Shown: one piece after another, positions 53,352 to 63,509 of the stretch
Position numbering within the stretch: the stretch's first letter is position 1
Layout of the letters: each line of letters opens with the position of its first letter
Origin: Actinomycetota bacterium
GTDB lineage: Bacteria > Actinomycetota > Geothermincolia > Geothermincolales > RBG-13-55-18
Reading direction: 5' to 3'
Length of the DNA: 64,000 nt
NCBI GenBank assembly: GCA_014360655.1
Contig: JACIXC010000003.1
Span: 124,001 to 188,000, forward strand
Program-made: the position numbers and the translations under genes
Notes under the pieces: generated by a model
The model's database searches: none
What the model was told of the DNA's origin: nothing
What the model saw: only the letters and a program-made list of their open reading frames with translations

Positions 53352-54335
53352 TCAGCGAGCGGCGGCACCCGCCGTCTTCGCCCCCGGCAGGTCCAGTTCC
53401 CACTTGCCGCAGCGGCCGCCCCAGCGGGCCAGGGTGTCCCCCTCCACCATGATCTTCACGATCTCGCAGTTGTTGGAGCATCCCTTGCAGTTGAAGCTGG
53501 AGGTGCGGTAGTCGATATCGGTGACCCGGAAGCCCTTGAAGTTGGAGACGGGCGGGTTCAGCTCCTTGGCGAGCAGGGCGGCCCCGATGGCCCCCATGAC
53601 GTTGTAATGCTCGGGGACCACCACCTCCATCTTGAGCGCCTCCTCGAAGGCGCGCTTCATGCCCACGTTGGCCGCCACGCCGCCCTGAAAGACCACCGGA
53701 GGCTCGATGCTCTTGCCCTTGGCGAGGTTGTTCAGGTAGTTGCGAACCAGCGCCTCGCACAGCCCGAAGATGATGTTCTCGATGGGGTGCCCCACCTGCT
53801 GCTTGTGGATCATGTCCGATTCGGCGAAGACGGAGCAGCGACCGGCGATCTGTACGCCCGTCTCCGCCCGCAAGGCGTAGGAACCGAAATCCTCGATGGG
53901 GATGGCCAGGCGCGCCGCCTGGTGGTCCAGGAAGGAGCCCGTGCCGGCGGCGCACACCGTGTTCATGGCGAAGTCGACCACGATGCCGTCCTGGAGGATG
54001 ATGATCTTGGAGTCCTGGCCCCCGATCTCCAGCACCGTGCGCACTTCCGGCACGACGTGCAGGGCGGCCACGGCGTGGGCGGTGATCTCGTTCTTGACGA
54101 TGTCCGCCCCCACGATGATGCCGCTCAGGTGGCGGGCGCTTCCCGTGGTCCCCGCACCCATCACCTCCACGTCGCCGGGAAGCTGCGCGCCCAGCTCGCG
54201 CATGCCCTCCTGCACGGCGCGGATGGGCTGTCCCATGGTGCGCAGGTACACGGAGGCCGCTACTTCGCCGCTTTCGTCCAGGAGCACCAGGTTGGTGCTC
54301 ACCGAACCCACGTCAACTCCCAGGTACCCTTTCAT
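53352..54335 (-). CDS. 2-hydroxyacyl-CoA dehydratase/benzoyl-CoA reductase activase (BadF/HgdC type)
   Basis: ATP-driven [4Fe-4S] activator that injects low-potential electrons into HgdB-type enzymes. 327 residues from the ATG at 54335. ASKHA motifs: YLGVDVGSVSTNLVLLD, VLEIGGQDSK and VVFQGGVAANVGM. The two cluster cysteines, one per monomer position, are Cys128 (NTVCAAGTGS) and Cys167 (IAGRCSVFAES). After the core, ~65 extra residues add four cysteines (Cys283, 286, 290 and 309) that could bind a further metal centre. It lies 725 bases from, and on the same strand as, the dehydratase-like subunits it likely serves. Confidence 0.9.
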   Translation of the reverse strand: MKGYLGVDVGSVSTNLVLLDESGEVAASVYLRTMGQPIRAVQEGMRELGAQLPGDVEVMGAGTTGSARHLSGIIVGADIVKNEITAHAVAALHVVPEVRTVLEIGGQDSKIIILQDGIVVDFAMNTVCAAGTGSFLDHQAARLAIPIEDFGSYALRAETGVQIAGRCSVFAESDMIHKQQVGHPIENIIFGLCEALVRNYLNNLAKGKSIEPPVVFQGGVAANVGMKRAFEEALKMEVVVPEHYNVMGAIGAALLAKELNPPVSNFKGFRVTDIDYRTSSFNCKGCSNNCEIVKIMVEGDTLARWGGRCGKWELDLPGAKTAGAAAR

Positions 54336-54500
54336 GGCTATTACTTTATCACAGTACCGGGGGCGGTTGGGGTCGCATCTTCGATATCCGGTTGAAGGGC
54401 CAGGGCTGCCGGATCCGTGACGATCACTCCATGCTCGACAGAAATGCCTGGAAAGCATGGCCGCAGTTGCGGAATTCGTTTGGAAAACTCCATGTCACAG

Positions 54501-55052: not shown

Positions 55053-55074
55053 CCGGGCCCTATGCAGGGCCCGG
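55053..55074 (-). terminator. Hairpin at the end of the acyl-CoA operon
   Basis: CCGGGCCC and GGGCCCGG with a 6-base loop overlapping the last codons and stop of the gene at 55060. No T-tract on the minus strand, so function is uncertain. Confidence 0.4.
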
Positions 55075-56481
55075 CCGGTGCGCTCGCCTGCGCGCGGGCT
55101 TTTTTCTCGCTATGACCTGGTCGAGGAAGGTCTCCACCTCGCGCTGGAATATCTCCATGGGCGTCTGCCGCTTGTCGAAGACGTCGCCGGTGAGCACCAG
55201 GGTGGGGACGCCCAACCGCTTCATCATCTCGCGTCGGAAGAAGGAGACGGTTCCCAGGGTATGCTTGCAGGCGTGCACGCCCCCGAAGATGCAGGCGTCC
55301 GCCCCCAGGTCCTGCACGGCGTAGCAGATGTCGTCCACCCAGCGCAGGGAGATGGATTCCCCTCCCATCTGCCGCGTCATGGGATAGTCGAAGGCGATGT
55401 CCGCATAGGTCCGTAACATGCTCTCCTTGGATGAGTAGTCCATGGGAGGGAAATAATGGATGGCGAGTATGTCGCCCAGGATGGATATCCCCCTCTTCTC
55501 CATCCAGGTGAAGTAACCGTGGAAGTCGAACAGCCAGTAGATATAGCTGATGTACACGCGCGCCAGCTCCTCCGGGGCGGTATACTCACCCTTGCGCATC
55601 CTTTCCTTGGAAATATCTACCATACGCTGCAGGACCTGTACCGCGTCCTCGCGTCCCCACATCTGGCTGCGCAGCACCAGGAGGGTCATGCCGAAGATGT
55701 TGGGGACGGGGCAGGGGCGCGCTTTCTTGAGCTCCCAGTACTCGTTGTAGAGCTCCACGGCGCGGTAAGACCTCTCCATCACCTCGCGCAGGCGCTCCTC
55801 CTTGAGCTCCTCCCCGCTCCACTCCTCGATCTCGCGGACGAACCGCATGAGGTACTGGAAGTACTGCTCGCGGCCGCGCGGGGATTCGTCCACCGGCTTT
55901 TCCAGGATGAACTGGGGGACCCCCAGGTAGTCGGCGGCGAAGGCGTGTATCTTGGCGTTGGGGTTGCAGCTCCCGGGCGTGTTGTAGACGATGGCGTCGG
56001 GCTTCAGCCCGGGGCCGGCCAGGAGCGAGGCGATGCCGATGGTGTTGCCGGAGCAGAGGGAGTCGGGAAGCCCCAGGCTCAACGCGTAGTCCCAGAAGCG
56101 CTCCCCCTGCCCGTAGCAGATGTTGACGATGGCCCCGGAGACTATCTCCGTGCACAGGGGAAAGAGGGAATCGAAGGCCCAGAAGAGCTCGGGCGGGAAG
56201 GTGAAGGGGATGAAGATGAGCTTCTTTCCCTCCGCCTGGGCCCGCTGCGCTTCCCAGAAGAGCTCGAGCAGCCTCTGGAAGAAGAAGACCTCCAGGTTGC
56301 GGTTCGCGGGCAGCTCCAGCAGCCCCAGGACGGTGTTCCTGAGCTCCGGGAAGACGAAGTTCGCCGCCCCCTCGACGTCCTCGTCGCTGATGTTCTCGGA
56401 GAACTTGTAGACCATCTCCAGGATGCTCACGGCGCGCTCGAAACCGTTCTCGCCCCACCTCATCGCGTAACCCTTCTCCAT
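55060..56481 (-). CDS. 2-hydroxyacyl-CoA dehydratase/benzoyl-CoA reductase family subunit (HgdB-like, larger)
   Basis: 473 residues. This family uses a [4Fe-4S] cluster per subunit and electrons from an ATP-driven activase to dehydrate 2-hydroxyacyl-CoA or reduce aromatic acyl-CoA. Two Rossmann-like halves are visible, with LIFIPFTFPPELFWAFDS, NICYGQGERFWDYAL, SLCSGNTIGIASLL, YNTPGSCNPNAKIHAFAADY and the terminal GADACIFGGVHACKHTLG and GVPTLVLTGDVFDKRQTP. Candidate cluster cysteines are those of LCSGN, GSCNP and HACKH. The ATG overlaps the previous stop (TGATG). Aromatic, alicyclic or 2-hydroxyacyl substrates cannot be told apart. Confidence 0.88.
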   Translation of the reverse strand: MEKGYAMRWGENGFERAVSILEMVYKFSENISDEDVEGAANFVFPELRNTVLGLLELPANRNLEVFFFQRLLELFWEAQRAQAEGKKLIFIPFTFPPELFWAFDSLFPLCTEIVSGAIVNICYGQGERFWDYALSLGLPDSLCSGNTIGIASLLAGPGLKPDAIVYNTPGSCNPNAKIHAFAADYLGVPQFILEKPVDESPRGREQYFQYLMRFVREIEEWSGEELKEERLREVMERSYRAVELYNEYWELKKARPCPVPNIFGMTLLVLRSQMWGREDAVQVLQRMVDISKERMRKGEYTAPEELARVYISYIYWLFDFHGYFTWMEKRGISILGDILAIHYFPPMDYSSKESMLRTYADIAFDYPMTRQMGGESISLRWVDDICYAVQDLGADACIFGGVHACKHTLGTVSFFRREMMKRLGVPTLVLTGDVFDKRQTPMEIFQREVETFLDQVIARKKPARRRAHRPGPA

Positions 56482-57608
56482 CACGCACCACCCCCGATCC
56501 TCTCCAGGAAGGCCTGCACGCGCGTCTTGGTGCGCCCCACGTCCGACGCGGCGCTGTACTCCTTTTCCAGCACCAGGACGGGGATGCCCGCGCGCTCGAG
56601 GTCGCGGCGCACCAGCACGGAGTCCACGCCGTGCAGGTCGCAGAACTTGTTGTAGAGGTATACGGCGCCGTCAACCCGTGACCGCTGGGCCGTCTGCACG
56701 ATGTAATCACGCCGCTTTCCGTATTCCTTGTACATGCGGGGGCAGAAGATGCTCCCGAGGTAGCCGGAGGCAAGGGCACGCAGGGGATCGCCGTCCGCGT
56801 CCTGCCGCTGCAGGAAGGCACGGGAACCGAAGCAGAGGGCGTCGGAGACGATCGCCGCACCCAGGCCCTCCATCTCCCGCAGCCACTCCACCTCGTCCGT
56901 TGCCGGCCCGCAGAGCATGAGCCTGGCCGCCGGCTTCATCCCCGGCGCGTTCCTCCTTTCCTCCAGGGAGTCGGAGAGCAGGCGGGCGAAATCCCTTCCC
57001 GTCATGCGGGACCCCGCCAGCTCCAGGGCCAGCGCCTCGCTGCCCGAGAGCCTGGGACGCTCCGCTTCCCTCAGGGCGCAGAGCTCCCTCCACTTCTCCC
57101 GCACCAGGTTCCAATCGGCGACCGCCTGCCGCAGGGATGCCTCGCTCGCCTCGGCGCCGAAATGGGACGCGATGTGGTCCCGGAGCAGCTCCAGCTCGCC
57201 CTCGAAGTAGGCCAGGGAGTCGTCGCGGTAGAAGTGCGGGACCTTGAGGTAATGGAAGAAGGGCAGCCCCTTGCAGTGCTGCCAGTTCTCGAACATGGCC
57301 CGCAGGTGGTCGCAACCGTTGGTCTCGATGATGCCGTCCAGGAAATCGTAGGTGCCGTCCAGGGCGAGCTGCAGGCAGGAGCGGCAGAAGGAGCAGTTGA
57401 AGAGGGACATCTCGCCGTCGGCCAGGTCGGTGCGGGGGTTGCCCAGGGCCCGGATGCGGTAGGGAAGGATGCCCGCCGCCTCGATGAGCTCCACCGGCGT
57501 GGCCACGCAGGCGTAGCCGAGCACCAGGCCGCCCCTTGCCTTCCATTCCCGGACGTAGTCGTCGTATACTTCTCGTTCCGTTATAGGTGCCGTGGGTACG
57601 CCTGTCAC
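56481..57608 (-). CDS. 2-hydroxyacyl-CoA dehydratase/benzoyl-CoA reductase family subunit (HgdB-like, smaller)
   Basis: 375 residues from a GTG at 57608 (GGAGGTGAAGGGC). It begins with the Tyr-rich region and GYACVATPVELIEAAGILPYRI, then FNCSFCRSCLQLALDGTYDF with Cys72, Cys75 and Cys78, and the typical ETNGCDHLRAMFENWQ (Cys99). The C-terminal part has FCPRMYKEYGKRR, DGAVYLYNKFCDLHGVD and AGIPVLVLEKEY, which matches the BcrB/HgdA subunit ending. It overlaps the next HgdB-like gene, so the two should form the heterodimer. It follows the repeat protein gene by five bases. Confidence 0.88.
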   Translation of the reverse strand: MTGVPTAPITEREVYDDYVREWKARGGLVLGYACVATPVELIEAAGILPYRIRALGNPRTDLADGEMSLFNCSFCRSCLQLALDGTYDFLDGIIETNGCDHLRAMFENWQHCKGLPFFHYLKVPHFYRDDSLAYFEGELELLRDHIASHFGAEASEASLRQAVADWNLVREKWRELCALREAERPRLSGSEALALELAGSRMTGRDFARLLSDSLEERRNAPGMKPAARLMLCGPATDEVEWLREMEGLGAAIVSDALCFGSRAFLQRQDADGDPLRALASGYLGSIFCPRMYKEYGKRRDYIVQTAQRSRVDGAVYLYNKFCDLHGVDSVLVRRDLERAGIPVLVLEKEYSAASDVGRTKTRVQAFLERIGGGA

Positions 57609-57613
57609 GCCCT

Positions 57614-59041
57614 TCACCTCCTTCCGCGAAGACGGGCCCACCGCCCGGCGAGGTAGCCCTTGATGGTTTGGTATATTATGGTAGATAAGGCCCTGAGGGC
57701 GATGCCGGCGAGCTCCGGGTGCGCGGCCAGCGCGCCCGCGAGGAGGGACGCGGCGTTCCCCGCGGCGCGGTCGAGCTCCGCGTGGTCCAGGCGTTCCAGG
57801 AAGTCCGAGGCGGCCGACCCCGCTGGCATGCCCGCGGCGGCGCGGCGGTTGAAGGCCCGCAGGGCGCGGTTAACCCGGTCCGCCAGGCTGTGGTAGGGGA
57901 TGAGAGAGGTACGCTCGGCTCTCAGGGATGACGCCACCTCCCGGCCGATGCGCGAGAGGAGGCCCGGGCTCTCCTCCCCTGCCCTGCGGCCTAGCTCGAG
58001 GAAGGCATGGACGGCCCTTGCCGTCCCCTCGGTATCCAGGCCCCGGGCCAGCGCCTCCTTCATGCCGCGCATGGTCTCCGGCGGCAGCGAGCACAGGCTC
58101 TCGAAGAGGGAGGCGGCGGTGCGCGCGAGGGCGTTCGCCAGGGAAACCGCCGCCTCCGCCAGCGAGACCGCCATGGCCTCGTCCCTCAGGGCCTGGCCCA
58201 CGAGGGCGGCCACCATGGTTTCCCCTTCCTCCGCAAGGGCGGCCACCGCCTCGGCGAGCAGCGGGCCCTGCAGTCCCGCCACGAGCTCGCTCCCCATGCG
58301 GGAGAAGGGAGTCGCGGAATAGAGGCTCCCCTCCCCCAGGATGAGGTTGCCGCGGTGGAGGTTCACCGCCACGCCGGCGGCCCCGTTGATCACCTCCGCG
58401 ATGCCCTTCCAGTCCAGGTCCTCGAGGATGTTGAAGAGCGCGTAGGACATGGCCTCCGCGGGCATGTTGAGCACCTCGAAGAGCTTCTGCAGGACCTTGA
58501 GGGCCTGGTTGATCACGGGGGGCACCACGCTGAAGAGGTTGACCAGGGCCACCGGGTTGTCCCCCAGCGCTTCCACCTCGCCGCGCAGGAGCTCCAGGTT
58601 TTCCTCCGCCCGGAAGACCAAGGCCTTGCGCAGCTTGCCGAAGTCCACGGCCCGCAGGGCGTCGGCGGTGATGGCCAGGCGCCGCCGGGCGAGCAGCCCG
58701 GGGTCCTGCTCGTGAAGGCGGATCATGAGGCGGGAGAGGGAATTCACCGCCTCGCCGATCGCCCCGCCGTCAAGGCGGGAGAGGGCCCGGTCGACGGCCT
58801 GCGCAGCGCTCTCGGGGGGCAGGCTCTCGAGGTGTTCGGCGAGGGCCTTCACCGCCCGCGCCGCCGCCTCCAGCACCCTGGGGAGCGCCTCCAGGACGGC
58901 CAGGGAAGTATCGCCGTCATCTCCGACCAGGGCCTGCGCCAGCTCCCGCGGGTCGCCCTCGTTGACGTCCCGCAGGAGGCGCGTGAAGTTCTCCCGGATG
59001 CGTTCCACCTCCGGGCGGGTGCTCTCGTTCTCCGCATGCAT
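57614..59041 (-). CDS. Uncharacterised helical repeat protein, about four units
   Basis: 475 residues from the ATG at 59041 (GAGGTG upstream). Nearly all helical, no Cys-rich or catalytic motif. About four ~50-residue units can be aligned at approximately 54-104, 174-224, 297-347 and 384-434. Each has a Leu/Ala-rich helix, then (L/M)(P)PE or NMPAE, then a second helix and (L/I)D with a following GEAVN/GIAEV-type end. Examples are ESLPPESAAQ, EVLNMPAEAM, CSLPPETMRG and AGMPAGSAAS. The same unit occurs once in each of the neighbouring proteins at 59380 and 60086. The C-terminus (IIYQTIKGYLAGRWARLRGRR-like, basic amphipathic) may touch membrane. Possible scaffold or acyl-carrier role is a guess. 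Confidence 0.75.
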   Translation of the reverse strand: MHAENESTRPEVERIRENFTRLLRDVNEGDPRELAQALVGDDGDTSLAVLEALPRVLEAAARAVKALAEHLESLPPESAAQAVDRALSRLDGGAIGEAVNSLSRLMIRLHEQDPGLLARRRLAITADALRAVDFGKLRKALVFRAEENLELLRGEVEALGDNPVALVNLFSVVPPVINQALKVLQKLFEVLNMPAEAMSYALFNILEDLDWKGIAEVINGAAGVAVNLHRGNLILGEGSLYSATPFSRMGSELVAGLQGPLLAEAVAALAEEGETMVAALVGQALRDEAMAVSLAEAAVSLANALARTAASLFESLCSLPPETMRGMKEALARGLDTEGTARAVHAFLELGRRAGEESPGLLSRIGREVASSLRAERTSLIPYHSLADRVNRALRAFNRRAAAGMPAGSAASDFLERLDHAELDRAAGNAASLLAGALAAHPELAGIALRALSTIIYQTIKGYLAGRWARLRGRR

Positions 59042-59141
59042 CGCCATCACCTCGCTGTCGAGTGCACTGCCGTGCGAACACCTGCGGCCGCGCGCCGGGG
59101 ACCCCGCGATTCGGCCGCGCTTCCCGTCAGGCCGCGGCTCA

Positions 59142-59324
59142 TCAATCTACTGCCTTCTTTTTCCAGGGTATGGCCATTGCCAGCATGGCCACGTAGGCGG
59201 CGAAGAACCAGAAAAGGAACCACAGGCCCAGGGAGGGGACCTCCTTCCTGCGCAGCCGATCGGCCAGCAGGGCGCAGGCCATGCCCTTGTAGAGGATCTG
59301 CGCGTACGAGGACGTGTCCTGCAT
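59142..59324 (-). CDS. Small single-span membrane protein
   Basis: 60 residues from the ATG at 59324 (GGGAGGCAGGTC). A polar/charged helix (LLADRLRRKEV) is followed by one hydrophobic segment at ~33-53 (LGLWFLFWFFAAYVAMLAMA) ending with Lys residues. Between the two helical repeat genes, so probably a membrane anchor for the complex (inference). Confidence 0.65.
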   Translation of the reverse strand: MQDTSSYAQILYKGMACALLADRLRRKEVPSLGLWFLFWFFAAYVAMLAMAIPWKKKAVD

Positions 59325-59379
59325 GACCTGCCTCCCGTCAAGCTTTCCCGGGGACCGACGGCCCCATCCACCTCTCCAT

Positions 59380-60072
59380 TCACCGTTTCCTGAGCGCCGC
59401 CGCCTTCCTCTTCGCCAGGCGCAGCAGGAGGAGCGCGGCCACCGCGGCCGCAACGCCCGCCGCGGCCCTGCGCGCGGCCCCTTCCTTTTTTTCGCGCGGG
59501 GGACGCGCCGCGGCGATGGCCAGCGCGGCTACGCGCCGCAGTGAGCGGGCCAGGGCGGCGGTGTCCATTTCCCTGCGGGCCAGGGAAAGGGTGTGGGCGA
59601 TCTCCGCGCGGTTTTCCTCCAGGCGCGCCGTGGCCCGGTCCAGGGCGGAGAGCAGGCGGTTGAGGGCCGCGACGGCCGCTTCCCTCACCTCGTCCGGGGT
59701 GCTGTCCTCGCCCACGGCCAGGCGTCGGAGGAGGGCCCCGTAAACCTCCGGAAAGCGGCCGAGCCGCTCGCGGTCTATGCCCCCGCCGATGCGCCCCAGG
59801 ATGTCCTTGAGCAGCGGTTCCGGCAGGCCGTTGAGCTGGCGGCCCAACTCGAGCATGAACTCCAGCAGCCAGTTGGCGAGGTCGGGAAAAGCGCCGAACA
59901 AGCTCATGGAGATGCCGGGGTCTCCCCAGAGGAGGGTCTTCACCAGGCCGGACGCCGCCTCCGGCCTGATGCCCTTCATCTGGAGGAGGAGGACCTCCTT
60001 CAGCGCCGGGGTGGCGATCACCTCCCTGAGCAGGCGCTCTCCGAGGCCCGGGTAAACCAAGTCGTCGCTCAT
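59380..60072 (-). CDS. Uncharacterised helical protein with one repeat unit and C-terminal membrane helix
   Basis: 230 residues. The shared unit lies at ~49-105 (DPGISMSLFGAFPDLANWLL, then NGLPEPLLKDILGRIGGGID). It is closely similar to the 60086 protein in this part. After it come helices (ALNRLLSALDRATARLEENR) and a hydrophobic helix at ~203-220 (AAAGVAAAVAALLLLRLA) ending in a basic tail. Predicted topology is a cytoplasmic helical domain anchored by the tail. No known family recognised. Gap of 13 bases to the upstream gene. Confidence 0.72.
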   Translation of the reverse strand: MSDDLVYPGLGERLLREVIATPALKEVLLLQMKGIRPEAASGLVKTLLWGDPGISMSLFGAFPDLANWLLEFMLELGRQLNGLPEPLLKDILGRIGGGIDRERLGRFPEVYGALLRRLAVGEDSTPDEVREAAVAALNRLLSALDRATARLEENRAEIAHTLSLARREMDTAALARSLRRVAALAIAAARPPREKKEGAARRAAAGVAAAVAALLLLRLAKRKAAALRKR

Positions 60073-60085
60073 GGCCTCACCCCCC

Positions 60086-60883
60086 TCACTTCTTTTCCGC
60101 CCGGCCCGCGCCGCTTTGGCCCTTCTTCGCCCGGGTCGCGCCGGCTCGGCCCTCCACGGCTTTGGCCGCGCCGCCCCGGCCCTCCTCCGCCCGGGCTTCG
60201 CCCTCCCGGCCTCCCGCCTTCGTGGCGGTCTTGCGCGCGGCCGGCCTGGCGGGGGCTTCCAGCAAAGGCTTGATGACGTGCTGGGCGAAGTCCGGGTTCT
60301 CGGAAAGCGCCCTGCTGAAGGCCTGGATGAAGGCGTGCGTGGAGGTGCTCCTGTCCTTTGCCCGCTCCGCCGTGCGCGCCATCCACCCGCTGAGCCTCGC
60401 GGCGAGGTCGCCGCCCTCGAGGGCGCGGGAGCAGGAGGCGGAGAAGTCCCCCGCCAGGGAGGAGAGGCCCCTGCGCAGGCCGCTTTCCGTGTCCGTGAGG
60501 TCCAGGGAGAGGAGCATCTTTAAAAGCCCGCCGGCCGCTTCCCCCGCCGCGGCGCCGTCTATACCCGCCACGATGCGTCCCAGCAGGTCCTTCAGCAGGG
60601 GAGGGGGCATGGCGTTCATCTGGGCGGCGCTCTCGGCCATGGCTTCCAGCGCCACGTTCACCATGGCGGGAAGGGACCCCATGATGGACATGAGCAGCCC
60701 GGGGTCCTGCCAGAAGAGGGTGCGCACCAGCCTCCTGGCCGCCGGGGGGTCTATGGAATTCAGGAGGATGATGACGGTCTCCTTGAACTTGGGGGTGCGG
60801 ATGAGCTCCCGCAGGATGCGGTCTGCGGCGTCGACGATGCCCCTGCTCTCCGCCTCGCCTCGCGTCTCGATGTCCGCTTTCAT
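60086..60883 (-). CDS. Uncharacterised helical protein with one repeat unit and a basic Ala/Gly/Lys tail
   Basis: 265 residues from the ATG at 60883 (GAGGTGGTGAAG). The shared unit lies at ~58-115 (DPGLLMSIMGSLPAMVNVAL then NAMPPPLLKDLLGRIVAGID and GAAAGEAAGG). The first ~45 residues contain an RTPKFKETVIILLNSIDPPAAR stretch, also seen (TPALKEVLLLQMKGI) in the 59380 protein. From ~210 the tail is low complexity, rich in Ala, Lys, Arg and Gly, histone-H1-like. Ten bases separate it from the dehydrogenase gene. Function unknown. Confidence 0.72.
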   Translation of the reverse strand: MKADIETRGEAESRGIVDAADRILRELIRTPKFKETVIILLNSIDPPAARRLVRTLFWQDPGLLMSIMGSLPAMVNVALEAMAESAAQMNAMPPPLLKDLLGRIVAGIDGAAAGEAAGGLLKMLLSLDLTDTESGLRRGLSSLAGDFSASCSRALEGGDLAARLSGWMARTAERAKDRSTSTHAFIQAFSRALSENPDFAQHVIKPLLEAPARPAARKTATKAGGREGEARAEEGRGGAAKAVEGRAGATRAKKGQSGAGRAEKK

Positions 60884-60893
60884 CTTCACCACC

Positions 60894-62177
60894 TCAGAGG
60901 GTCTCGCACTCGTAGAACCAGCGGGCCACCTCTATCTGGCAGAGCTGCTTCGATCCCTCCACCAGCTGCAGGATCTTCAGGTCGCGCCAGTGCTTCTCCA
61001 CGTCCCAGTCGCGGTCCGCGCCGTAGGCTTCCATGAGGTTCATGACCCTGCCGGTGACCTCGATAAAGCGGTCCATGGCCAGGTAGCGCTGGGCGCGCAT
61101 CCTGGCCACCAGCCCGGGGTGCCAGAGCGGCCCGTAGAGGTCGTGGCGGTCGCACATGCGGGCGCACTGGTAGCCCACTATCCTTATGGCCTCGATGTTG
61201 GCGGCGAAGTCGGCCAGCAGCCCGGCCACGGCATCGTTTTCCTTCAGGGGCAGCCCGCGGTAGCGCTTGCGGTTCACGAACTCCGTGAGCCTCTCGTAGA
61301 TGTTCATCATGGCGCCGGAGATCCAGGCGATGATGCCCATGTTCCCCGTGGACATGATCTCCCCGAAGTACTTGGCGTCGTCGCCGGGGCCGCAGGCGCG
61401 GTACCAGAGGGGCACGCGCACGTTCTCGAACCACACGTCCGAGTTCATGTCCGCCGCCATGCCCGCCTTCTCGTATGGCGGCCCCTGGGTCACCCCGGGC
61501 GTGTCGTCGGTCACGAAGATCACCGCGATGTCCCGGGGGTCGTCGGACCCCGGGTTGGTGGTGCAGACCACGGCCATGAGCCTGGCCAGCCCGCCCGTGT
61601 TGGAAGGCCACAGCTTGTGACCGTTGATCACCCACTCGTCCCCGTCCCTCACCGCGGTGGTCCTGATGGTGCTTCCCCTCACGATCTCGATGTTCTCGAT
61701 GTCCGAGCCGCCCTGGGGCTCGGTCATGCACAGGGCCGCGAAGACGGGCTCCGTCGTCTCGCAGAACATGGGGGCGAACTCCTCCAGGAGGCGGCGGTTC
61801 TCGTGCGGCTCCAGGGCTATGAAGAGGAAGGGCCAGAAAAGGGCGCCGAAGGCCAGGGCCATCCCGGAATCGGCGCGGGCTATCTCCTCGAACATGCGGA
61901 AGGCGGCCACGCACATGTAATGCGACCGGCCCATGCCCCAGCCGCCGAGGTCCTCCGGGAAGATCATGCGCTGCAGGCCGTACTCTCCCAGGAGCTTCCT
62001 GAAGGGGGGATGGATGAGGTGGTGGTCACGGTAATCCTCGTCGAACTCGCGGCGGTAGGGCATGACGTCCTTTTCCACCCAGTCGCGGAAGATGGAACCC
62101 AGGAGGCCGTCCATGGGCGAGACGTATTCCAGGGGTCGGGTGAAATCGTCGATGCTCCTCGCGTCGTTGCTTCCCAC
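60894..62177 (-). CDS. Acyl-CoA dehydrogenase, likely catalytic subunit
   Basis: 427 residues from a GTG at 62177, eight bases after GGAGG. FAD enzyme that makes a 2,3-enoyl-CoA (or analogous desaturation). Motifs: LQRMIFPEDLGGWGMG, ARADSGMALAFGAL, AALCMTEPQGGSDIEN, WVINGHKLWPSN and the C-terminal RDLKILQLVEGSKQL. The Glu of LVEGS aligns with the catalytic base Glu of medium-chain acyl-CoA dehydrogenase (YEGT). It follows a second dehydrogenase by 13 bases; a heteromer is likely. Natural electron acceptor would be ETF, whose genes are not in this window. Confidence 0.92.
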   Translation of the reverse strand: MGSNDARSIDDFTRPLEYVSPMDGLLGSIFRDWVEKDVMPYRREFDEDYRDHHLIHPPFRKLLGEYGLQRMIFPEDLGGWGMGRSHYMCVAAFRMFEEIARADSGMALAFGALFWPFLFIALEPHENRRLLEEFAPMFCETTEPVFAALCMTEPQGGSDIENIEIVRGSTIRTTAVRDGDEWVINGHKLWPSNTGGLARLMAVVCTTNPGSDDPRDIAVIFVTDDTPGVTQGPPYEKAGMAADMNSDVWFENVRVPLWYRACGPGDDAKYFGEIMSTGNMGIIAWISGAMMNIYERLTEFVNRKRYRGLPLKENDAVAGLLADFAANIEAIRIVGYQCARMCDRHDLYGPLWHPGLVARMRAQRYLAMDRFIEVTGRVMNLMEAYGADRDWDVEKHWRDLKILQLVEGSKQLCQIEVARWFYECETL

Positions 62178-62190
62178 GTGCGTCACCTCC

Positions 62191-63426
62191 TCACAGTGTC
62201 CGGGCCCCGTAGAACCGGCGGGCGAAATCGTGCTTGGCCAGCTCGTAGGCGCCCAGGTAGCACTGCAGGGTCTTCACGTCGCGCCAGTAGCGCTCGAGCT
62301 GCCATTCCTTGGCGTAGCCGGCGGAGGCCATGAGCTCCATGGTGCGGTGGATGGCGTATTCCGCCGAGGCGAGGACCTGGTGGGCGATCATGAGGGCGGC
62401 GGTGAAGACGCCCTCGGAGTCGGCGTCCCCGTAAGTGTCCGGCTCGGCCAGCATCTCCGCCAGGTCGTAGGCCAGGAGGCGGTCCACGGCGATCTCCTTG
62501 GCGATTTCCCCCATGAGGGCGCCGGTGAGCGGGTTTTCCTTGAAGATGTTGCCGGTGCCCTTGATCACCCGGTTATCGCCCCACTCCCTGAGGATGCGGT
62601 AGGAGGCGAGGAGCGCACCGACCGCGGAAGCCGTCACTCCCAGGTAATACCAGGATAGGAGGTGTCGGTACTCATCCTCCTCGCGGAAGAGGCAGTTGCC
62701 GGCGGGGAGCTCCACCCCCTCGAGGTCGAGGTCCGCGTTGCGGCTGGCGGCGAGGCCGGTCTTCTTGAATTCCGGCCCGCGCGAGACACCCTTCGCGTCG
62801 CCGGGGACGAGGATGAAGGCCGGCCGCTCTTCCCCCTCCACCGCGCACCACGCCCCGAAGAGGTCGGCGTCGGCCCCGGAGCAGGTGGGCCGCGCGCGCC
62901 TGCCGGAGAGCTTCCACCCCGTTGCCGTGGGCGTGGCCTTCACCTGGTAACTTTTCCCATGCCAGGCGGGCGCATCCTCCTCTTCCCCGAAGGCGGGGAG
63001 GAGGAAGGAGACGATGACCGGGGACCCGTTTGCGCAGAAGAGGGGGGCGAAACGGTCGCAGGCCTCCTGCTTGCGGTGGCCGTCCGCGGCGAGCGAGGCC
63101 TGCAGGGCGAAGCTGTGGGCGGCCAGGAAGGCCAGCCCGACGTCGGCCCTGCCGACCTGCTCCAGCGCCGCCGTCACCGTGAAGGCGGCCTCCGGCCCGC
63201 TGTGTCCGTCCCCGCCCAGTTCCTCCGGCCAGAACATCCTCTGCAGCCCCATGTCCGCCATCAGCCTGGCGTAGGCCGGCCCGAGGAGCCCCTCGTAGTC
63301 CTCCTTGAGTTCCAACCGCTTTTCCACGATCTCCTTTTCCACCAGGCCCTGCAGCCCCGCCGCCAGGTCGAGGTCGGGTTCCTGCAGGCGCCCCCGGGGA
63401 TAGGGGAACAGGTCCAGTCCGCTCAT
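62191..63426 (-). CDS. Acyl-CoA dehydrogenase homologue lacking the usual catalytic Glu
   Basis: 411 residues from the ATG at 63426 (GGGAGGTGCGT). Family fold is clear: LQRMFWPEELGGDG, GRADVGLAFLAAHSFAL, WKLSGRRARPTCSGADADLF, GPEFKKTGLAASRNADLDLEGV, and the end ELMASAGYAKEWQLERYWRDVKTLQ. Where the canonical enzymes have Tyr-Glu-Gly, this protein has CYLGAYEL, so Leu replaces the base. Either another residue acts or it is a structural partner of the next dehydrogenase. First gene of the leftward operon, 13 bases before the next. Confidence 0.9.
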   Translation of the reverse strand: MSGLDLFPYPRGRLQEPDLDLAAGLQGLVEKEIVEKRLELKEDYEGLLGPAYARLMADMGLQRMFWPEELGGDGHSGPEAAFTVTAALEQVGRADVGLAFLAAHSFALQASLAADGHRKQEACDRFAPLFCANGSPVIVSFLLPAFGEEEDAPAWHGKSYQVKATPTATGWKLSGRRARPTCSGADADLFGAWCAVEGEERPAFILVPGDAKGVSRGPEFKKTGLAASRNADLDLEGVELPAGNCLFREEDEYRHLLSWYYLGVTASAVGALLASYRILREWGDNRVIKGTGNIFKENPLTGALMGEIAKEIAVDRLLAYDLAEMLAEPDTYGDADSEGVFTAALMIAHQVLASAEYAIHRTMELMASAGYAKEWQLERYWRDVKTLQCYLGAYELAKHDFARRFYGARTL

Positions 63427-63509
63427 ACGCACCTCCCTTTCGGTACTTCCGACAAGTGTTTCGCAGAGGCCGACGGGACGGCACGGGCGGGCGTCCAACG
63501 GTTAAGCGG

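Follow-up and report, generated by a model that had tools for sequence, protein, structure and literature searches.

Analysis of a 64,000-nucleotide stretch of DNA from an uncultured Actinomycetota bacterium (contig JACIXC010000003.1, positions 124,001 to 188,000; hereafter the window) identified three adjacent minus-strand genes, helA, helB and helC. Sequence comparisons show that their products are mutually homologous and form one family of predicted all-helical repeat proteins. helA matches helB with an E-value of ~1e-24 and helC with an E-value of 1e-7 (phmmer), in agreement with the initial annotation of this region, which had proposed a dedicated family of three adjacent proteins.

The internal repeats were analyzed with a unit profile built from helA, helB and a short paralogue only, with no helC sequence included. 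This profile matches helC at three places, with independent E-values (iE) of 2e-10, 2e-3 and 1e-3, and profile-profile alignments of the unit with helC (hhalign) give 1.2e-9, 4.5e-6 and 6e-4. Segments of helC also match each other (9e-10 for units 1 and 3, 1e-4 for units 1 and 2, and 1.8e-5 for unit 3 and the C-terminal segment), thus bearing out the intragenic duplication that had been suggested from motifs aligned by eye. With shuffled columns, none of 60 runs equaled the real score in five of these six comparisons; for the unit against unit 2, 1 of 60 did. Structure prediction, which the initial annotation had named as a check together with a profile search and a self-comparison of helC, gave all-helical AlphaFold models (AF2; pLDDT 71 for helC and 82 for a helB-helC fusion described below) with a recurring series of helices of ~26, 30, 13, 21 and 15 residues. 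The natural unit is ~110–120 residues long and consists of five helices; the ~50-residue unit originally described is a real motif, but it is the core of this larger unit. Similarly, the repetition within helC is significant, but in place of four equal copies the protein has three complete units followed by half a unit at the C-terminus. With one unit in helA and one and a partial half in helB, the trio totals ~5.5 to 6 units, consistent with the earlier count of about six. No diagnostic DNA-level repeat is left, and the duplication is therefore old.

Apparent repeats could also arise from the mere shared composition of Ala/Leu-rich amphipathic helices, an origin for which the high-GC genome, the all-helical proteins and the top PDB sequence matches (apolipoproteins and designed bundles) could be cited. 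We find it scarcely credible, since W, D, P and N positions are invariant across the single-unit hel proteins, synteny is one-to-one across three phyla and shuffled columns almost never attain the real scores. The phmmer, profile-profile and shuffle results together refute a composition-only origin of the similarity. Unit 2 of helC carries DFG, P, N and H-x-G positions that hardly vary among 49 helC sequences from three phyla: D136, P166, N181 and G234 are invariant, and F137, G138 and H232 nearly so. This pattern suggests that unit 2 has a precise role, either as a fixed interface or as a small site.

As far as sequence and predicted structure allow, the hel family is new and undescribed. No profile in Pfam, NCBIfam or PHROGs claims helA, helB or helC, with only sporadic matches below the curated cut-offs, so that the earlier view that they contain no named domain holds and an assignment to unrelated known families is absent. 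PDB sequence profiles gave nothing credible covering the unit, and Foldseek searches of the PDB with both AlphaFold models returned no usable match. A kinship with apolipoproteins or designed bundles was rejected, as the match in question (E=1e-5) spans profile positions 111–207 in the variable C-terminal part, outside the conserved unit, and is therefore a composition effect. A plasmid search found nothing, and no paper describing the gene order discussed below was found in the open-access literature.

The family spans at least three phyla, with members in uncultured Actinomycetota, Desulfobacterota, Smithella and Syntrophomonadaceae. The window's genome is closely related to Ca. Geothermincolaceae, with Ca. 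Geothermincola and Ca. Solincola as its best named matches. In partial genome samples, hel genes were present in 14 of 15 genomes of the host's family, most with two loci, in 25 of 396 Actinomycetota genomes, in 18 of 345 genomes from the phylum of a "Deltaproteobacteria" metagenome-assembled genome and in 2 of 398 from the phylum of a Syntrophomonadaceae one; they also occur in a Smithella metagenome-assembled genome. All named hel-bearing records are metagenome-assembled genomes.

Across these phyla, the hel genes recur in the order ACADa-ACADb-helA-helB-helC-HGDbeta-HGDalpha(1–3)-activase(1–2), where ACADa and ACADb are acyl-CoA dehydrogenases (ACADs), and HGDbeta and HGDalpha are subunits similar to BzdN and BzdO of benzoyl-CoA reductase. 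Counting all distinct copies, the gene preceding helA or helB is ACADb 46 times, another helA/B 27 times and ACADa four times, and in 40 cases HGDbeta comes directly after helC; most deviations fall at contig ends or where open reading frame (ORF) calls conflict or overlap. The gene calls place a BzdN-like subunit after helC wherever the call is clean, and an ACAD nearly always upstream of helA/B. A strict rule that helA always follows ACADb had to be softened, given the four cases after ACADa and some disturbed loci. At the junction of helC and HGDbeta, the genes are separated by a median of a few bases; in roughly half of the cases they overlap, typically by 4 bp. Three loci (L170, L171 and L173) contain helC and HGD genes without ACAD, helA or helB, while in another (L105) ACADb-helA-helB lies apart from helC. 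These arrangements indicate two separable pairs, helA/B with the ACADs and helC with the reductase. In addition, helB and helC are fused into a single protein of 542 aa in a second operon of the window's genome and its orthologues, and into one of 602 aa in Syntrophomonadaceae. The second operon (L007) encodes a CoA-transferase, an MmgE/PrpD protein, ACADs, a one-unit hel protein of 167 aa, the 542-aa fusion and HGD subunits, as well as a CCG/ferredoxin protein and a MetV-like protein.

Judged by its predicted cluster ligands, the neighboring enzyme is an ATP-dependent reductase of the benzoyl-CoA reductase type that falls outside all curated equivalog subfamilies. The nearest PDB match of HGDbeta is BzdN (1.8e-51), and the HGDalpha profile matches BzdO (1.2e-25). 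According to PMC11971306, the double cubane of BzdN is bound by Cys36, 73, 100, 263, 293 and 327, and the active-site cluster of BzdO by Cys95, 128 and 380. The equivalent residues in HGDbeta (C45, C83, C110, C270, C300 and C334) and HGDalpha (C144, C173 and C406) are invariant in 52 of 52 and 70 of 70 sequences, respectively. Thus, HGDbeta has the six Cys for the [8Fe-9S] double cubane of the N subunit of class I benzoyl-CoA reductases, and HGDalpha the three for the [4Fe-4S]-OH2 cluster of the O subunit. The bzd-type enzyme consists of BzdNO with the ATPase BzdPQ (PDB 8s02), and class I benzoyl-CoA reductases have two ATPase subunits of the ASKHA type. Here, one or two BcrAD-type activases follow the HGD subunits, two in many loci and one in the window operon. 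The enzyme differs from the bzd type in scoring far below all NCBIfam bzd/bcr equivalog cut-offs (164 against 454 bits for bzdN, and 25 against 449 and 78 against 380 for others), in an N-terminal extension of HGDalpha of ~80–90 residues beyond the HGD-D match, in the frequent presence of two or three HGDalpha copies, and in being accompanied by the hel proteins and the ACAD pair. The 2-hydroxyacyl-CoA dehydratases (HAD; HadBC/HadI; PDB 3o3m) share the superfamily and activase type, but have lost the double-cubane cluster (PMC11971306). HGDbeta retains all six ligands, so a "dehydratase" reading was rejected and the Pfam HGD-D label to that effect is probably misleading. HGDbeta, with its six ligand positions, also scores 157 bits against the double-cubane cluster protein (DCCP; NF040772); this is, however, below the 350-bit cut-off, and the enzyme here has two unlike subunits, as in BzdNO.

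Of the two dehydrogenases, ACADa lacks the Glu at the catalytic position, and ACADb has it in the window but a Met or Leu in most relatives. The pair may therefore rely on a different base or serve in electron transfer. The window ACADb is of the Glu-bearing type (94% to L038:4030-5361), whereas a Leu-type paralogue (72%) takes its place in the same-genus genome (L036); other genera keep both types around ACADa.

Since the hel genes travel with ACADs and an ATP-driven iron-sulfur reductase, their products are probably dedicated docking parts of an anaerobic enzyme complex. We would give even chances to the specific proposal that they are non-catalytic subunits, with helC on the reductase and helA/B on the ACADs, joined by unit contacts and held at the membrane. 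In this arrangement, helC would dock on the HGDbeta side of the double-cubane reductase, and helA and helB on the ACADa/ACADb pair. Given the fold common to the docking proteins, contacts between their units could join both enzymes, a connection that would be made permanent in the helB-helC fusion, and the hydrophobic or basic C-terminal ends of helB and helC would hold the assembly, probably at the membrane. ATP hydrolysis by the activase would power electron transfer, first to the double-cubane cluster of HGDbeta and from there to the [4Fe-4S] cluster of HGDalpha, which would reduce an acyl-CoA that the ACADs have produced or will process. The adjacency of ACADb to helA/B and of helC to HGDbeta, the separability of these two pairs, the fusion and its all-helical model, the reductase ligands, the hydrophobic basic tails and the invariant helC positions all favor this proposal. 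Several observations weigh against it. Gene adjacency would fit an assembly factor too. The AF2 fusion model has a pTM of 0.58 and no PDB match, so that no functional site can be placed, and in helC the invariance of DFG and H-x-G may point to a role more specific than scaffolding. The helB tail is less hydrophobic in Desulfobacterota, and membrane attachment may therefore not be general. Finally, the window operon has a single activase, compared to the pair of ATPase subunits in class I benzoyl-CoA reductases. A further step, in which the shared duplicated docking fold builds a membrane-attached metabolon that couples the ACAD pair and the reductase, with direct passage of product or electrons between an oxidation and a reduction at very low potential, is possible but doubtful; to our knowledge, such a multi-enzyme architecture has not been described for any benzoyl-CoA-reductase-type enzyme.

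Among the other functions that could be assigned to the hel proteins, we rank an assembly factor first, followed by a carrier and quinone coupling. As assembly or maturation factors, they would act transiently, loading FAD or Fe-S clusters or folding the ACADs and the reductase, and be absent from the working enzyme. The fixed one-to-one adjacency with the enzyme genes, the translational coupling and the specific invariant residues of helC are compatible with such a role, and the CooC/MinD-like ATPases encoded after many operons suggest cluster or metal maturation. We nevertheless think it improbable: one factor family would have to serve two different enzyme types, a fusion of helB with helC suits structural subunits better, membrane-like C-terminal tails would be odd in a soluble chaperone, and factors of this kind are not mentioned in the passages of PMC11971306 that cover class I benzoyl-CoA reductase and the related HAD enzymes. 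A lipid or acyl-chain carrier, with a hydrophobic pocket that would pass long or polycyclic acyl-CoA between the ACADs and the reductase, is favored by the hydrophobic helices, by the CoA-transferase and MmgE/PrpD genes of the second operon and by a protein beside one relative operon (L105) with a weak, sub-threshold SCP2-like match (Pfam E=0.005). Neither sequence searches nor Foldseek detected a lipid-binding fold, and the apolipoprotein match lies off the conserved unit, which makes a carrier a distinctly unlikely choice.

Quinone coupling, which we place marginally lower still, has a precedent in ForE (DUF1641), an accessory subunit of Bacillus formate dehydrogenase that lets the soluble enzyme reduce menaquinone (PMC8808070). 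Like ForE, a small accessory protein encoded next to a redox enzyme and proposed to contact the membrane loosely (PMC8808070), the hel proteins are helical, lie beside redox enzymes and have membrane-seeking tails. Their enzyme partners are different, however, and they lack profile similarity: DUF1641 membership was rejected as the hhalign probability is at most 5.5% against five DUF1641 (PF07849) proteins, and PF07849 has no match in 31 genomes of the class. Furthermore, the electrons required by the reductase lie at a much more negative potential than a quinol can reach, so that at most the ACAD half would use quinone.

Benzoyl-CoA-reductase-type enzymes carry out some of the lowest-potential reductions in biology, and none known to us is accompanied by a dedicated trio of helical proteins together with two dehydrogenases. 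The loci described here represent an uncharacterized branch of these reductases, which uncultured anaerobes from at least three phyla have kept with the hel trio and the ACAD pair. What the analysis adds to the initial annotation is the association with ACADs and a reductase like BzdNO, a second, paralogous operon, the fusion and the phylum-level spread; the outcome is a protein family ready to be named and a correction of the "dehydratase" label on its neighbors, and three would-be hypothetical proteins become a concrete, testable complex.

Table 1. Features of the hel locus and neighboring genes (window coordinates).
Feature	Position	Strand	Description
ACADa	62191..63498	-	Divergent acyl-CoA dehydrogenase (Pfam); no catalytic-position Glu (CYLG)
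ACADb	60894..62186	-	Acyl-CoA dehydrogenase (Pfam, PDB alignment); catalytic-position Glu (LQLVEG)
helA	60086..60892	-	268 aa; probable ATG 60883; one unit, then Ala/Lys/Gly-rich basic tail
helA unit, residues 24–131	60500..60823	-	Unit profile iE 9.5e-48 (helA itself a profile member)
helB	59380..60072	-	230 aa; probable ATG 60072; one unit and partial helical C-terminal half
helB unit, residues 12–119	59716..60039	-	Unit profile iE 5e-44 (helB itself a profile member)
helB C-terminus	within 59380..60072	-	Hydrophobic segment, basic end AAAGVAAAVAALLLLRLAK...RKR
60-aa remnant	59142..59324	-	Remnant of small multi-helix membrane protein, between helB and helC
helC	57614..59050	-	478 aa as called; 475 aa from probable ATG 59041
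helC unit 1, residues 15–135	58646..59008	-	LPPE; hhalign u1-u3 9e-10, unit-helC 1.2e-9
helC unit 2, residues 136–260	58271..58645	-	NMPAE; hhalign u1-u2 1e-4, conservation
helC unit 3, residues 261–382	57905..58270	-	LPPE; unit-helC 4.5e-6
helC half unit, residues 383–478	57617..57904	-	GMPAG; hhalign u3-u4 1.8e-5, 51 columns
HGDbeta	56481..57641	-	BzdN-like reductase subunit; six invariant Cys (45, 83, 110, 270, 300, 334)
HGDalpha	55060..56484	-	BzdO-like reductase subunit; three invariant Cys (144, 173, 406)
Activase	53352..54458	-	ATP-dependent (BadF/BcrAD, CoA_E_activ)

The GTG/ATG codons chosen by the ORF caller fall within Shine-Dalgarno-like sequence (gaggtggtgaagatg, gaggtgatggcgatg), which accounts for the apparent invariance of M4 in the family alignment. 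A homologue of helA occupies the same position in 11 loci of the family. The hydropathy of the helB tail is 1.83 over 19 residues, and the helC half unit terminates in a basic amphipathic helix. The counterpart of the 60-aa remnant in relatives, also between helB and helC, is 137–163 aa long; compared to the same-genus locus L036, ~237 bp (79 codons) are missing in frame. In the helA tail, which is shorter in relatives than in the window, three degenerate DNA repeats with 30-nt spacing (60106–60211) encode an Ala/Gly/Lys/Arg-rich stretch.

Many hel loci have CdhC-like and CooC/MinD-like proteins downstream. A CdhC (acetyl-CoA synthase beta) domain protein of 244–277 aa and a CooC/MinD-like ATPase follow the activases, sometimes with a flavodoxin-ferredoxin, in L047/L111, L127, L175, L179, L183 and others, and are not present in the window operon. 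A GMC-type FAD oxidoreductase adjoins helC-HGD loci that lack helA and helB (L171:10153-11532, L172:14028-15362, and upstream of helC in L170). In several Desulfobacterota loci, a protein between helB and helC (L101:11094-11732, L110:4288-4974, L177:8132-8806 and L180:7691-8344) was rejected as a hel member, as it looks by eye like a TetR-type regulator, which suggests substrate-responsive control of these loci.

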